This document shows, piece after piece, positions 1,387 through 11,431 of a stretch of 64,000 nucleotides of DNA; the stretch's first letter is position 1, and each line of letters opens with the position of its first letter. The stretch lies in contig NZ_JAKJHW010000007.1 of NCBI RefSeq assembly GCF_021646685.1, positions 1 to 64,000 of the forward strand, given 5' to 3'. The notes beneath the pieces are model-generated. The model was not told the origin of the DNA. It did not search any database and saw nothing but the letters and a program-made list of their open reading frames with translations. Both the position numbers and the translations under genes were made by a program. Origin of the DNA: Pseudalkalibacillus salsuginis (GTDB lineage: Bacteria; Bacillota; Bacilli; Bacillales; Fictibacillaceae).

Positions 1387-2211
1387 TCAGGTATTTTTCT
1401 GGAGTTCATTGAATGTCGCATTTACTTCCCCCCCGATGATGACCATCAGCCCTGAAACATAAAACCAAAGCATCAAGACAATGACCCCGCCAAGACTTCC
1501 ATAAGTGGCACTAAAATTCGCGAAATTATTGACGTAAAAAGAAAATGCCCAGGATACGAACTGCCAACCCATTGTAGCTATAACAGCTCCGATCCAGACA
1601 TTCTTCACCCTTAAACGTTTGTTCGGTGCAACAAAATATATAATTGTGATGACACACACAATAACGAGCGTACTAAGTACCCATCTGAGAGCATTCCATA
1701 TCGCTTCCCAGTGGGGGAGTCCGAGATATCCGAATATGTGGCCGATCATCTGGCCGAAAACCGGAAGAGCCATAGCAACGAATATGATAAGCAGCATGCC
1801 GAGCGTCAACATCATCGCAACTGCTCTTGCAACGATGAAATTTCGGCTTTCCTCAACATCATAAGCTTTATTCAAGGCCCTGATTACGGCATTCATGCCA
1901 TTAGAAGCGGTCCATAGGGTAGCGATGATCCCGACTGAAAGGATCGCTCCACCCTGATTATTGATGATTTCCGTATTCTCTTTGACGATATTCATCAACT
2001 CCGGCGGTCCATAGAGTTGTATAAAAGTAAACAATCGATTATGGTCCAAGATTGTCGTAAGGATCGTTACCGTGACAATCAGAAATGGGAAGAGTGACAG
2101 CAGAAAATAAAAAGCAAGCTGTGCTGCTAAATCGGTTACACCGTCATCTTGTATCCGTCGGAATAAATCCTTCCAGAATATCTTTTTCGATGGCTGCTTC
2201 AATCTTTCCAC
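1387..2211 (-). CDS. yfkH: YihY/BrkB family membrane protein
   Basis: A polytopic membrane protein of the YihY/BrkB family (once named ribonuclease BN in error); function unknown. Seen are the family signature around DLAAQLAFYFLLSLFPFL, about six transmembrane segments, and a conserved YGSLGGVIVLMLWFYVSG stretch near the C-terminus. The reading frame opens at a TTG at 2226, but GGGGGGAG lies just before GTG 2211, which I take as the start (MERLKQPSKK). In B. subtilis yfkH is linked with the phosphatase gene yfkJ; a yfkJ relative lies at 3218-3682 here, which supports the identification. Confidence 0.85.
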   Translation of the reverse strand: MERLKQPSKKIFWKDLFRRIQDDGVTDLAAQLAFYFLLSLFPFLIVTVTILTTILDHNRLFTFIQLYGPPELMNIVKENTEIINNQGGAILSVGIIATLWTASNGMNAVIRALNKAYDVEESRNFIVARAVAMMLTLGMLLIIFVAMALPVFGQMIGHIFGYLGLPHWEAIWNALRWVLSTLVIVCVITIIYFVAPNKRLRVKNVWIGAVIATMGWQFVSWAFSFYVNNFANFSATYGSLGGVIVLMLWFYVSGLMVIIGGEVNATFNELQKNT

Positions 2212-2302
2212 AACCACTCCCCCCAATCCATAGGCTTATAAGAAGCCACCTTTATCTGTCATTTCTGAACTAAGCTAGGATGCTCGGTTCATGGACCTAT
2301 TT

Positions 2303-2770
2303 CTAATATTTATTTTCGTCAAGGTCAGGTATGTCCGTTAATTCCTTCCCAGCTTCTCTCACTTTGCCGGAAACATCCCTCAGCTCTCCGCCAACCTCTT
2401 TCATGCTGGAATACGTCTCGACAGAATGCTGGCGAACTTCGTCAACTTTCTGGATGACTTCTCTCACTTCACGGGATAAATCATTCAACGCTTTTGATGT
2501 AGTGTCCATCGTATGCTTTACAGTCTCCATGATGACCGATGGATCTTCCCTTACTGTCCTGTATAGGGATGTTGTCTGGTCCTTTATTCTTGCTGATCTT
2601 GTCTGGACATTTTTTCGTGTGTTCTTATCGATCAACGCTGCCATTCCTCCGACAGCCGCACCGATCAGGATTCCTTTCCAAAGGAAAGAGCCCTCTTTCT
2701 TTTGATTCATACTAACTGGTACGGCTTGGTTTACTTTTTGTTGATCTTGTGTGTATACAGATTGAGCCAT
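2303..2770 (-). CDS. YtxH-like small stress-type protein
   Basis: A 155-residue protein with a short N-terminal segment, one glycine-rich hydrophobic helix (about 30-46, FLWKGILIGAAVGGMAAL) and a long charged helix likely to be coiled coil. This is the pattern of YtxH-domain proteins, many of which belong to the sigma-B stress group in Bacillus. The start follows AAAGGAGAGATC. It is read toward the BrkB-family gene with a gap of about 90 bases and is divergent from the GlsB-type gene, so it may be cotranscribed with yfkH. No enzymatic motif is seen. Confidence 0.7.
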   Translation of the reverse strand: MAQSVYTQDQQKVNQAVPVSMNQKKEGSFLWKGILIGAAVGGMAALIDKNTRKNVQTRSARIKDQTTSLYRTVREDPSVIMETVKHTMDTTSKALNDLSREVREVIQKVDEVRQHSVETYSSMKEVGGELRDVSGKVREAGKELTDIPDLDENKY

Positions 2771-2850: not shown

Positions 2851-2876
2851 GTTTAGAGAATTTTTTGGCAGGGAAT
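2851..2876 (+). promoter_or_regulatory. Sigma-B-type promoter
   Basis: GTTTAG at 2851-2856 and GGGAAT at 2871-2876 are spaced by 14 bases. The sigma-B consensus is GTTTAA-N12..14-GGGTAT, so there is one mismatch in each box. It ends 47 bases before the GlsB-type start codon. Confidence 0.65.
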
Positions 2877-3205: not shown

Positions 3206-3244
3206 GAGATCGGCTCATCAAAAGAGCCGGTCTCTTTTCATTTT
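3206..3244 (+). terminator. Terminator of the GlsB-type gene
   Basis: GAGATCGGCTC (3206-3216) pairs with GAGCCGGTCTC (3224-3234, one G-T pair) and is followed by TTTTCATTTT. It overlaps the 3' end of the convergent phosphatase-like gene. Confidence 0.85.
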
Positions 3245-3682
3245 GTGTTTGATAAAATGTTCACAGCCGATTGTGACCAGGTTGAATGCTTCATTAAAAT
3301 TCCCCGTCAAGTAAGGATCCGGTATATCGACCTCTTTTTGATCGGCAACATAATCAAGGAGCCTTGCGATTGTACCTGTCTGACGCATTCCAGCCAGACG
3401 ATGCAATTCACCAACAGTTTCAGCATCCATGGCAAGGATGAAATCAAATGTCTCCAGTTCCTCTACTCTGACCTGCCTGCTTTCTTTTTGATCAAAGGGA
3501 ATTTTTTTATCGGTTAAAAATTGAACCGTTTCTTCATGGGGAAATTCACCCACATGCCAATCTCTCGCGGCTGCTGTATCAACTTCAATCTGATGCCCCT
3601 CAATCTTGCACTTTTCCTTTAAAACCGCTTCCGCAATCGGAGCTCGGCATATTCCGCCAAGAGAAACAAATAGGACCTTCAT
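3218..3682 (-). CDS. yfkJ: LMW protein-tyrosine-phosphatase homologue lacking the catalytic Cys
   Basis: A 154-residue protein with the full fold signature of low-molecular-weight phosphotyrosine phosphatases. The P-loop, normally V-C-L-G-N-I-C-R-S-P, reads VSLGGICRAP at residues 6-15: the nucleophilic Cys is Ser (codon TCT), Asn is Gly and Ser is Ala. The P-loop Arg and the general-acid Asp in IPDPYLTGNF are kept. The family needs the Cys for its phospho-enzyme step, so normal phosphatase activity is not expected. It may bind phosphotyrosine proteins without cleaving them, or be decaying; the otherwise intact frame favours retained function. Closest in pattern to B. subtilis YfkJ. Confidence 0.85.
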   Translation of the reverse strand: MKVLFVSLGGICRAPIAEAVLKEKCKIEGHQIEVDTAAARDWHVGEFPHEETVQFLTDKKIPFDQKESRQVRVEELETFDFILAMDAETVGELHRLAGMRQTGTIARLLDYVADQKEVDIPDPYLTGNFNEAFNLVTIGCEHFIKHKMKRDRLF

Positions 3683-5815: not shown

Positions 5816-6865
5816 TTACCTCCTCATGCTTTTCGTAATCTTCTTCCATTTCGCTTTCTCTTCCAGCTTTGCTTTCTGATCATTCTTCCGCTCCAGATAA
5901 GCAAGTTCGCGTTGTAATTTTTTATAGGACGCATACCTTTCTGCCGTCAATTCACCAGTGTCAATCGCTGTTTTTACCGCGCATCCTGGTTCGTTCTCAT
6001 GCTGACAGTCCCTGAACTTGCACACGTCAGCAAGTGCCTCCACATCCCGGAAGCTTTCGGATAACCCATCATTCGTATTCCACAATTGAAGCTCTCTCAT
6101 ACCAGGTGTGTCAATCATTGATCCCCCCTGTGGCAAAAGGAACAGTTCCCTGTGGGTCGTTGTATGCTTCCCTTTATCATCGCCCTCACGGATTTCTTTC
6201 ACCTTCTGTATATCTGACCCGTATAACCGGTTCACCATGGTCGATTTCCCTGCACCTGACGAACCGAGCAATGCCACTGTTTTACCTTCCGAAAGATAAG
6301 GTGTGAGCTCATCAATCCCCTCGCCTGTTTCAGAGCTTATGATATGGACTGGAAGACCGATAGCCACTGTTTCTACATCATTTACCCGTTCCTGGATATT
6401 TTCACACAAATCCGCTTTACTTAGCACGATTACCGGGTTAGCTCCGCTTTCCCATGCCATCAATAGGTATCGCTCAATCCTTCTGACATTGAAATCCTTA
6501 TTAAGTGCATTTACTAGAAACACTGTATCGATATTCGTTGCGATGATCTGTTCTTCTGTTGTCACACCAGCAATCTTCCTGGAAAATTTACTGGTTCTCT
6601 GCAGGATGGCATGAATTGTGGCTGCCCGATCATTTTCTCGGATCTGACACATGACCCAATCACCCACCGCCGGATAATCTTCACGCTCGGTAGCTTCAAA
6701 ATTCATTTTACCAGATATGGAGCCGAGGATTTCACCATGTTTTGTCAACAAGGTGTACATTCCCTTATGCTCTAACGCAACTCTACCCGGCTCATAACCT
6801 TTATTTATCCATTCGTTTGCTTGTTCAATACGTTCCTCATTAAATCCTAATTGTTGTAAATTCAA
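5816..6865 (-). CDS. rsgA: Ribosome small-subunit-dependent GTPase A
   Basis: A circularly permuted GTPase that helps late 30S subunit maturation. Order seen: N-terminal OB-fold (to about residue 100), G4-like VLSKADL (about 156), P-loop GSSGAGKST (about 201-209), DTPGMRE switch, then a C-terminal zinc site [14 protein letters not shown]. At 349 residues it is longer than the usual ~295-residue Bacillus RsgA and resembles the longer form. The start is TTG at 6865 with TAGGAGG nine bases upstream. It lies upstream of yjbQ and downstream of two terminators that end the small transcript at 6.9-7.25 kb. Confidence 0.92.
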
Positions 6866-7256: not shown

Positions 7257-8174
7257 TTATTTACTGAATGCTTCAACAAATTGTATGATGGCCGGTCCTA
7301 ATAGGACGATGAACAAACTTGGGAAAATGAACAATACAAGCGGGAAAAGCATTTTGACCGGTGCTTTCATCGCTTCTTGTTCAGCACGCTGTTTTCGTTG
7401 ATCGCGTACTTCTTCAGATTGAACACGCAAGACATTGACCATCCCGATTCCGAGCTTTTCAGCCTGTAAAATACTGCTGATCAGGATGTTGATTTCATCT
7501 ACCGTCAGCCGCTCCCTCACTCCACGAAGTGCTTCCCGCCGTGTTTTTCCTAACCGGATTTCTTCTAGACATCGGTGGAACTCAGTCGATAAGACCCCTT
7601 CTTTTTTCGAAACGACCTTACTGAGAGCGCCGTCAAAACCGAGTCCCGCTTCAAGACTGACCGTCAGAAGATCCAAAACATCCGGAAGCTCGCGTAAGGC
7701 AGATTGTGAACGAGCTTTCTTTTTACTTTTCAAATAATAAGGAGGAAGGATGATTGCAACCAGCATTGCAAATGACACCGACAGAATGATGCCACCCAAT
7801 TCAAACCCTGATAATGCTCCCCATCCCCCAGCTAAAAATGGGATGATCAAGATCAGACCGAGCTGGATGAGGCGATACTCAAACGTCGTCATACCGAATG
7901 GGTTTCCTGCTTGAAGTAATTTTACTTCAAGCCTGGCTTGTTTCTCCCCCTGCATCTTTTTCTTGAATCCTCTGCGGAAATCTTTCCAAAGCGGGCCCAG
8001 CAAACGTACGTGTAACGGTTTTGCTGTGGCATCATTTTCATCTTCCTCAGCTTCAGCTTTTTTACCGACAAAAGCATCCAGTCGCCGTTTGACCGGTTCT
8101 TTTTTCTCGCTACGATAAACGTAAATGGAATAAAGAAATAACGTAACCGCAGCGAAGAAACTGATATATATCAT
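7257..8174 (-). CDS. tadC: Tad pilus inner-membrane platform protein TadC (T2SS-F family)
   Basis: A membrane platform protein of the Tad/Flp pilus motor. Seen: an N-terminal hydrophobic segment, a basic cytoplasmic part, two membrane segments (about 105-150), the T2SS-F domain with LRELPDVLDLLTVSLEAGLGFDGAL and a final hydrophobic segment before FVEAFSK. The frame is open to 8189, but the ATG at 8174 has GAGGTG seven bases upstream and gives MIYISFF; the upstream tadB stop is at 8179. It is the last gene of the operon. Confidence 0.9.
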   Translation of the reverse strand: MIYISFFAAVTLFLYSIYVYRSEKKEPVKRRLDAFVGKKAEAEEDENDATAKPLHVRLLGPLWKDFRRGFKKKMQGEKQARLEVKLLQAGNPFGMTTFEYRLIQLGLILIIPFLAGGWGALSGFELGGIILSVSFAMLVAIILPPYYLKSKKKARSQSALRELPDVLDLLTVSLEAGLGFDGALSKVVSKKEGVLSTEFHRCLEEIRLGKTRREALRGVRERLTVDEINILISSILQAEKLGIGMVNVLRVQSEEVRDQRKQRAEQEAMKAPVKMLFPLVLFIFPSLFIVLLGPAIIQFVEAFSK

Positions 8175-8178
8175 CTCT

Positions 8179-9138
8179 TTACACCTCAATCGTGGTTACT
8201 TTTCTAATTAATATAAATCCGATAATTCCAGAAATAAGACCAGCCGCAAGTAGGCCCATACCAATGATATGCGTGAACAATGTACCGATGTACTCCGGTT
8301 CGATCAGATAAAGAACCAATCCTAAAATGAGCGGGAGTAATCCGATGACGATACCAGAAAGCTTCCCCTGTGCGGTAAGCGTACTGATCTGTCTCTGGAT
8401 TTTCGTTCGATCACGGATGGTTTGGACGATTTTATCAAGGACCGTCGCTAAATTACCTCCGACCTGCCTTTGAATCAAGATCGCCTGGATCATAAGTTCC
8501 AAATCTTCACTTGGCATCCGCTCATATAATTCATTCAATGAATCCTCAAGTGAACTGCCGTATTGCATTTCCTTCAACACAAAACCGATTTCACTGCTGA
8601 TCGGGTCATCCGCTTCTTCGACAACGGTTTGCAGCGCCTGCGGAAAACTGAATCCTGCACGTAAGGAGCCTACCACCGTCGAAATCATATCCGCTAGTCC
8701 ATCATTGAACTTTTGAATCCGTTTCTTTTCCTTTTTCTTGATCCACATGATCGGCAGCATATAGCCTCCTGCAGCACCGATGATCAGCATCAGAATACTG
8801 CCCGATATAAGGAAAAGAAATCCCGCAGCTAATGCGGTTGAAATCCACCGGAACAGGATGAACTCCTCCGGCTTCAATGGAACCCCGGCTCTACGTAGCA
8901 TGCTTTCAAGCTTTTTGCTCTTCTTTTTCGAGACCTTCGAGCGCAGTCGCTGCTTCGATAACTGGAGCTCTAGAAATAGGTTGAATTTTTTCCGTTCAAG
9001 CTTTGATTTGTTATAGCTCGAAAGATAATAATTCATCCGCTTGATCATACGTTTGTCTGAAAGAAATGTCATGTGAAAAATAGCGTAAAAGAATAAAAAG
9101 GAAGTGAAGGATGCCAACACGATTAAATAATAATGCAT
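8179..9138 (-). CDS. tadB: Tad pilus inner-membrane platform protein TadB (T2SS-F family)
   Basis: A 319-residue partner of TadC. It has an N-terminal membrane segment, a basic linker rich in Lys, a central pair of hydrophobic segments (about 100-145), the T2SS-F domain with FNDGLADMISTVVGSLRAGFSFPQAL and QRQVGGNLATVLDKI, and two C-terminal membrane segments. The start ATG overlaps the cpaF stop (TGATG), so the two are translationally coupled. Confidence 0.9.
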   Translation of the reverse strand: MHYYLIVLASFTSFLFFYAIFHMTFLSDKRMIKRMNYYLSSYNKSKLERKKFNLFLELQLSKQRLRSKVSKKKSKKLESMLRRAGVPLKPEEFILFRWISTALAAGFLFLISGSILMLIIGAAGGYMLPIMWIKKKEKKRIQKFNDGLADMISTVVGSLRAGFSFPQALQTVVEEADDPISSEIGFVLKEMQYGSSLEDSLNELYERMPSEDLELMIQAILIQRQVGGNLATVLDKIVQTIRDRTKIQRQISTLTAQGKLSGIVIGLLPLILGLVLYLIEPEYIGTLFTHIIGMGLLAAGLISGIIGFILIRKVTTIEV

Positions 9139-10571: not shown

Positions 10572-11431
10572 GCTTTTCCCTCCTTGCTACGTTTAGACCT
10601 TTGGAATATTTTAGAAAGGAATGAAGGCTCAGCAGATTCATAGACTTTAATTTCCCGTCTTGAGGTAAGCTGTTCTGCTATCTTCATGACTGCCTTCGCA
10701 AGTTCGGTCTTTCCCTGGTTCACCACAAAAGGGATTCCGATATTCAATGATTGGGAAGCGATTTGAAAATCATTCGGGATATACTGAAGCTCAGGGTCTT
10801 CTAGAATATCCGGTACATCTGAAGCACTGATGACACTCTCCATCGTCGATCGATTCACTACTGTTGTCACTTTGGTATTCAGCTCGATTGCGTCAAGCGT
10901 CTCCAACATCAACTTCGTATTTTTCAAAGTCGACATTTCTAAATTAGTCAGCATCAGGATCTGATCTGCCTTTTCAAGTAAAGGCAGTGTCTGTTCCTGT
11001 AACCCTACCCCTGTGTCAACCACAACATAATCGAACTGCGAAAGCATGAGATCGAGAATCTTGCTAATATTCTCCTTCGTCACAAGCTCTGAGTACTCCG
11101 GCCGGTCTGGAGCTGAAAGGACACGGACCCCGCTTTCATGTCTGCTGAAATAGCTTTCGAGTGTTACTTCATCAAGATCATCGATATCCTCGATGACATC
11201 CTTCACCGTAAAGGCCGATTGCAAGTCCATGGCAAGCCCGACATCCCCAAACATATAATCGCCATCCAGCACCCCGACTTTTATGCTTTTTTTACATAAA
11301 GCAACGGCCAAGTTGACCGTCATGATTGTACGGCCAACTCCACCTTTAGCGCTGCATACAGCAATCATTTCTCCGCGCTTTCTTTTTTGTATCCCAGTAT
11401 GCTCATTTTTTTCACTGGTGTTAGTTGTCAT
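10568..11431 (-). CDS. tadZ: Tad pilus localisation ATPase (TadZ/CpaE, MinD/ParA-like)
   Basis: A 287-residue SIMIBI ATPase thought to place the pilus machine in the cell. The deviant Walker A reads AKGGVGRT (about residues 29-36): the Lys that ends KGGxGK is Arg, while the signature first Lys is kept. The switch region YVVVDTGVG and the MLTNLEMSTLKNT segment are present. It lacks the N-terminal receiver-like domain of longer TadZ proteins. It starts after GAGGAGGCTGCTTCGG and overlaps cpaB by 11 bases. Confidence 0.88.
   Translation of the reverse strand: MTTNTSEKNEHTGIQKRKRGEMIAVCSAKGGVGRTIMTVNLAVALCKKSIKVGVLDGDYMFGDVGLAMDLQSAFTVKDVIEDIDDLDEVTLESYFSRHESGVRVLSAPDRPEYSELVTKENISKILDLMLSQFDYVVVDTGVGLQEQTLPLLEKADQILMLTNLEMSTLKNTKLMLETLDAIELNTKVTTVVNRSTMESVISASDVPDILEDPELQYIPNDFQIASQSLNIGIPFVVNQGKTELAKAVMKIAEQLTSRREIKVYESAEPSFLSKIFQRSKRSKEGKA

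Follow-up and report, generated by a model that had tools for sequence, protein, structure and literature searches.

The stretch of DNA analysed here (the window; 64,000 nucleotides from Pseudalkalibacillus salsuginis) carries on its minus strand, at 3218..3682, a gene for a 154-residue homologue of low-molecular-weight protein tyrosine phosphatases (LMW-PTPs) of the YfkJ type, in which Ser replaces the catalytic Cys. Quite probably, the gene is a maintained, nucleophile-less YfkJ orthologue. The Cys has been lost, yet the protein is preserved by selection, and therefore it is probably a phosphate-binding protein that does not cut. Judged from sequence, the chances appear even that it is a lineage-specific pseudophosphatase which does not turn over substrate and which probably binds a phosphorylated ligand; whether it acts through the binding of such a ligand, as its retained residues and related systems may suggest, is likewise evenly poised.

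The open reading frame begins with ATG, has zero internal stops, and is preceded by a ribosome site that is plausible by eye. Its product, assigned by ORF translation together with Pfam and structure-sequence matches, is by descent a member of the LMW-PTP family (Pfam LMWPc; profile positions 1-143 of 144, E 5e-31, 108.2 bits against a cut-off of 23.2). An NCBIfam assignment was rejected, the only matches being Wzb-type and far below cut-off. The nearest solved relative by sequence is B. subtilis YfkJ (PDB code: 4etm), matched over residues 2-149 at E 9e-40, with the best YwlE structure entry far behind at E 4e-6. By this best solved match and by its syntenic place, the gene is a YfkJ orthologue. 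The AlphaFold2 model (44 rows) has a mean pLDDT of 92.4 (96-97 over residues 1-20) and a pTM of 0.89; Foldseek on this predicted model returns 4etm first (TM 0.92-0.93, 1.5 A), and the predicted fold is that of LMW-PTPs. Foldseek also matches 1c0e, a bovine S19A mutant, and 4kk4, titled as a YwlE C7S mutant with phosphorylated active site serine. The closest named record is from Alkalihalobacillus sp. YIM B00296, with 88% identity. Two further proteins of the window's genome (4.29 Mb in 19 contigs) match the family, which brings the total to three; both retain the Cys, and we take them from their loop motifs to be YwlE-type and ArsC-type. No canonical YfkJ was found in this genome.

Residues 6-15 read VSLGGICRAP, and the earlier note's claim of Ser in place of the catalytic Cys in this P-loop is borne out, the codon being TCT (3662-3664, minus strand). 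The codons of residues 7-14 (3641..3664, minus strand) encode SLGGICRA where the canonical loop is CLGNICRS. LMW-PTPs are described as having the loop motif CXGNXCRS, with the first Cys as the nucleophile and an Asp as the acid (PMC7948962); in SLGGICRA the Cys, Asn, and Ser of the active motif are all replaced. An essential catalytic residue has been lost while the gene has been maintained, which is what makes a pseudophosphatase. The rest of the protein had been described as intact. This holds for Arg13 and Asp122-Pro123-Tyr124 of active LMW-PTPs, the latter in the D-loop with its general-acid Asp (Pro121 to Tyr124; 3311..3322, minus strand), and for the fold match, but not for four further residues: Asn10 is replaced by Gly and Ser14 by Ala, both within the loop as the note itself had quoted it, Gly38 by Ala, and Asn89 by Thr, all at positions at least 99% conserved.

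Conservation was measured against 226 homologues outside the genus (26 from the same taxonomic family, 121 from the order, and 79 far relatives from the best 80 of 104). Otherwise the loop is strictly conserved, C7, N10, and S14 each being found in 226/226. Of the 23 positions conserved to at least 99%, the four variant copies found in the genus all keep 13 (V6, G9, I11, R13, P15, A17, H43, R69, M85, D86, P121, D122, and Y124), have all lost five (C7, N10, S14, G38, and N89), and are mixed at five (C12, S36, D75, P123, and F129). Trp42, which forms the W-loop with His43 (3554..3559, minus strand), is near-invariant (1.00) across the 147 rows from family and order and reaches 77% over all 226; both residues are retained in the four copies. 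Three of the copies have Ser at position 7 and retain Cys12; the fourth, in genome G005, has Gly7 and has also lost the second Cys (to Ser), Pro123, and Phe129. The loop Asn and Ser are part of a hydrogen-bond network shaping the loop and the thiolate, and a left-handed backbone is tolerated by Gly as by Asn. In LMW-PTPs, the phosphonate of a ligand is reported to be held by loop backbone amides and Arg, and the D-loop Tyr to hold its ring, in many cases together with a W-loop aromatic residue (PMC7948962). Loss of the residues for catalysis with retention of most residues for binding is the pattern that a phosphate-binding pseudophosphatase would be expected to show.

In the genus sample of eight genomes of Alkalihalobacillus-like bacteria (G000 to G007, G000 being the window's), the loop reads VSLGGICRAP in G000 and G004, VSSGGICRAP in G007, and VGTGGISRTP in G005; position 7 is therefore S, S, S, and G, and Cys in 0/4. 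The same Ser, which the earlier note had proposed to look for in orthologues, was thus found in three species of the genus, the window's included (the other two being 88% and 68% identical to the window protein), with Gly in a fourth. All orthologues read outside the genus have Cys: 26/26 genomes of the same taxonomic family (loop LFVCLGNICRSP), 140/140 order loci, and 79/80 far relatives (the best 80 of 104 in a scan of named genomes), where the one exception is the record of G004. Of the 299 genomes sampled in the order, 212 gave a match at E 1e-25; once the taxonomic family is set aside 202 are left, and of these 140 were read at one locus each (121 + 19), the other 62 being mostly weaker matches. 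The second P-loop Cys is missing in one of the 140 loci; L233 (G170), a canonical order homologue, has Phe in its place (CLGNIFRS). Among the loci read, the Cys-less variant appears confined to this genus. An isolated sequencing error at the TCT codon, a danger the earlier note had named, is excluded because two further species have TCT Ser and GGICRAP in their genomes too.

The replacements of Asn10 by Gly and of Gly38 by Ala are found in 4/4 genus copies and 0/147 family and order rows, and the four variant copies group together in 15-sequence gene trees with FastTree supports of 0.96 (DNA) and 0.99 (protein), on long branches. A single ancestral change would be the simplest account of the four copies. 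A frameshift or pseudogene was ruled out, as none of the four has an internal stop. Replacement by another canonical YfkJ within the genus was also considered, and none is present among 20 of the 21 family matches read (one G004 match left out), which comprise the four variant copies, eight YwlE-type (CTGNTCRS), and eight ArsC-type (CTGNSCRS) members. G001, G002, G003, and G006 have the neighbours but no match at the syntenic site, nor do they have a third family member. A tree built from seven proteins of the neighbourhood, some missing from some genomes, gave (G007,(G000,G004)), ((G001,G005),G003), and (G002,G006), with support 65 for the node uniting the first two groups against the third and the outgroups and 84 for (G001,G005). 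At least three losses are required on this tree (G001, G003, and the G002/G006 line), and two suffice if (G001,G005) is wrong. YfkJ appears to be often dispensable, since a match at E 1e-25 is missing from 87/299 genomes of the order.

Selection was estimated with a codon model in our own implementation (15 sequences, fixed tree). In the crown of Ser species dN/dS is 0.15, and a value of 1 is rejected (LRT 85.6, p 2e-20); the canonical YfkJ background has 0.03, and equality with the Ser crown is rejected at p 2e-7. In the same three species, dN/dS is 0.16 for the phosphatase relative and 0.02-0.12 for seven genes of its neighbourhood. Therefore, the gene is constrained, yet less than either its canonical counterparts or its neighbours. 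The two closest tips (G000/G004) have dN/dS 0.40, with 1 rejected at p 0.017. Pairwise, G000-G007 gives 0.10-0.14 by three methods (dS 1.5-1.9) and G000-G004 about 0.4. These values are interpreted for the Ser species only, the deep genus branches being saturated (the G005 branch at its bound and two others implausibly long). Between G000 and G007, nine of the 15 codons for residues 3-17 differ synonymously and one by an amino acid. When point mutation was simulated to 0.75 changes per site, which is roughly half of the G000-G007 dS, the frame stayed free of stops in 0.35% of 2000 runs. Purifying selection acts on the Ser copies, but less strongly than on canonical YfkJ. The case that the earlier note had set against itself, decay here with Cys in all orthologues, is not what is seen, with no Cys among the genus copies and with constraint rather than plain decay.

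The phosphatase gene keeps its syntenic place. In 4/12 loci examined (L132, L134, L139, and L145, all outside the taxonomic family), YtxH-like and YihY/BrkB genes lie closely downstream on the same strand, an order that we take to be the yfkJ-yfkI-yfkH arrangement of B. subtilis. The window has a YtxH-like gene at the YfkI position (2303..2770, minus strand; Pfam YtxH 29.9 bits, short of the 37.5 cut-off) and a YihY/BrkB-family membrane protein at the YfkH position (1387..2226, minus strand), with an opposite-strand gene of the Transgly_assoc family (PF04226; 2924..3187, plus strand) intervening between the phosphatase and YtxH-like genes. This convergent neighbour adjoins the phosphatase gene on the opposite strand in 7/7 family loci examined. 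Between the converging genes, a hairpin at 3206..3234 overlaps the 3' end of the phosphatase gene (-20.3 kcal/mol, z -7.06 on the plus strand; -16.8, z -3.81 on the minus strand) and is possibly a two-way terminator. An AGCS amino acid carrier gene also adjoins the phosphatase gene in the window; the 13-kb stretches of L015 (G005) and L049 (G001) gave no match to it at E 1e-4. Elsewhere in the window, two adjacent T2SSF-domain genes (7257-9138, minus strand) are perhaps, on our assumption, part of a Tad-type pilus cluster.

The earlier note had placed the gene in a stress neighbourhood, which is fair as a family resemblance. However, a SigB scan found no site before the phosphatase gene, and the only nearby one (2851..2876, plus strand) precedes the opposite-strand neighbour. 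The scan used the consensus GTTTA or GTTTA-like, then GGGWAT, a loose pattern with matches elsewhere too and no chance control; by it, the Transgly_assoc gene has a site upstream in G000, G004, G007, and G005, those in L013, L014, and L015 being at 5842 (+), 5751 (+), and 6770 (-). For B. subtilis YfkJ and YwlE, a role in ethanol stress resistance has been suggested, its mechanism described as not clarified (PMC4304235), and B. cereus YfkJ (BC0450) is listed among down-regulated genes (log2 -4.8) in a SigB heat-stress study (PMC9912610).

A model that we take to be of BY-kinase type, TIGR01007 (eps_fam), matches over cut-off in 30/34 genomes of the taxonomic family, G000, G004, G006, and G012 being without it, and CpsB_CapC matches in 26/34, with G000, G004, and G006 among the eight without. 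The five genus genomes other than these three have both. The window itself contains a sub-cut-off TIGR01007 match at 10946-11374. A source of phosphotyrosine is in doubt because neither TIGR01007 (over cut-off) nor CpsB_CapC is matched in the window's genome; therefore, if the protein reads phosphorylation there, its ligand may be something else. No clean link of the variant to BY-kinase loss was found: G007 and G005 have the variant and TIGR01007, G000 and G004 the variant without it, and G006 neither. The repeated loss of the gene in sister species and the missing BY-kinase match in the window's genome weigh against an essential phosphotyrosine role.

A possible evolution of the protein can be described as follows. 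A YfkJ orthologue would have been inherited vertically, and in an ancestor within the genus the nucleophilic Cys would have been lost together with Asn10, Ser14, and Gly38, which are thought to set up the thiolate and the loop. The gene would then have been retained as a pseudophosphatase with no multi-turnover phosphatase activity. Less certainly, the loop may still hold a phosphoryl group through its backbone amides and Arg13, with Trp42 and Tyr124 flanking it, and the protein may act as a sensor, shield, or adaptor that keeps hold of a phosphorylated small ligand or protein without cleavage. Counted against such phosphate binding are the weaker constraint, the 4/8 genus genomes without the gene, Gly7 in G005, the lower conservation of Trp42 over all 226 homologues, and the loss of the loop Ser that contacts phosphate in the Wzb mutant. 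The phosphotyrosine-binding regulator that the earlier note had suggested draws on the same contrast of binding residues kept and catalysis residues lost, and as a simple trap it is opposed by that Gly, by those absences, and by the unmatched BY-kinase and CpsB_CapC. Substrate trapping, as suggested by the residues and by laboratory mutants, is plausible; the bolder version, a natural bacterial phospho-trap in which a former tyrosine phosphatase would seize its phosphorylated partners and in the species with Ser might become stably phosphorylated on Ser7 itself, is doubtful, and if true would be a phosphorylation eraser turned reader.

It is unlikely, though to be taken seriously, that the gene is a dying relic, in which catalysis was lost once the function had become dispensable and which is leaving under a weak residual constraint, e.g. 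against misfolding only. The losses in sister species, the raised dN/dS (0.40 in G000/G004), the lack of TIGR01007 and CpsB_CapC matches, and the frequent absence of YfkJ in the order would all fit, but the frame and a plausible ribosome site are intact, neutrality is rejected in the Ser crown, a frame would seldom have stayed open in the simulations, and the altered P-loop is itself held with a single replacement. A little less likely is reuse of the fold as a scaffold for protein-protein contacts independent of the phosphate site. The five strict residues gone from all copies, C7, N10, S14, G38, and N89, agree with it, as do interaction screens reporting preys of B. subtilis YfkJ, some common to YwlE (PMC4205851); R13, W42, H43, D122, and Y124 nevertheless persist in 4/4 copies, and the fold alone should not require all of them. 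Ser7 could also attack a phosphorylated residue once and, as its ester would not be hydrolysed, keep the phosphate, making the protein a one-shot sensor or sink. In favour of this are Ser7, Arg13, and Asp122, the TCT codon shared by three species, and the title of PDB entry 4kk4, which names just such a phosphorylated serine; against it, that entry is an engineered arginine phosphatase, Asn10 and Ser14 are gone here, and G005 has Gly. Such a covalent acceptor is very unlikely. Scarcely credible is an error in the sequence or an enzyme still active through another nucleophile: the loop is the same in three species, and Cys12, kept in the Ser copies, is replaced by Ser in G005, and it is the first Cys that serves the family as catalytic nucleophile (PMC7948962).

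Under the preferred reading of a phosphate-binding pseudophosphatase, one conserved site offers a graded series, from canonical sister genera through Ser and Gly variants to gene losses, which makes testable both a route from phosphatase to binder and a non-catalytic role of YfkJ-type proteins. Pseudophosphatases have been described mostly in eukaryotes, above all in animals, and the window protein is probably a natural bacterial case. A search of literature on pseudophosphatases and inactive LMW-PTPs, covering titles and abstract openings with subscription papers mostly outside it, found no natural bacterial LMW-PTP pseudophosphatase.

Among known systems, B. subtilis YfkJ (4etm) is the closest solved relative, with 44-45% identity, the same fold, the same Arg, Asp, Tyr, and Trp, and the same kind of neighbours (YtxH-like, YihY/BrkB); it differs in having CLGNICRS where the window protein has SLGGICRA. 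Animal pseudophosphatases of the STYX type have likewise lost the catalytic Cys in an otherwise preserved phosphatase, but they are eukaryotic and of another fold and family (dual-specificity), and binding has been demonstrated for STYX and is a proposal for the window protein. STYX is reported to compete with active DUSP4 for ERK2 (PMC10211241); in contrast, the window's genome offers no active YfkJ to compete with. The YwlE C7S laboratory mutant (4kk4, by its title) is of the same family and has Ser at the same residue number, but it is engineered, and YwlE-type loops (CTGNTCRS) keep the Asn and Ser that the window protein has lost. The C9A mutant of Vibrio vulnificus Wzb is also engineered, with Ala in an otherwise canonical loop, whose Ser, lost in the window protein, contacts the phosphate as well; like the window protein it is an LMW-PTP without its nucleophile, and its P-loop is reported still to bind phosphate (PMC7948962).
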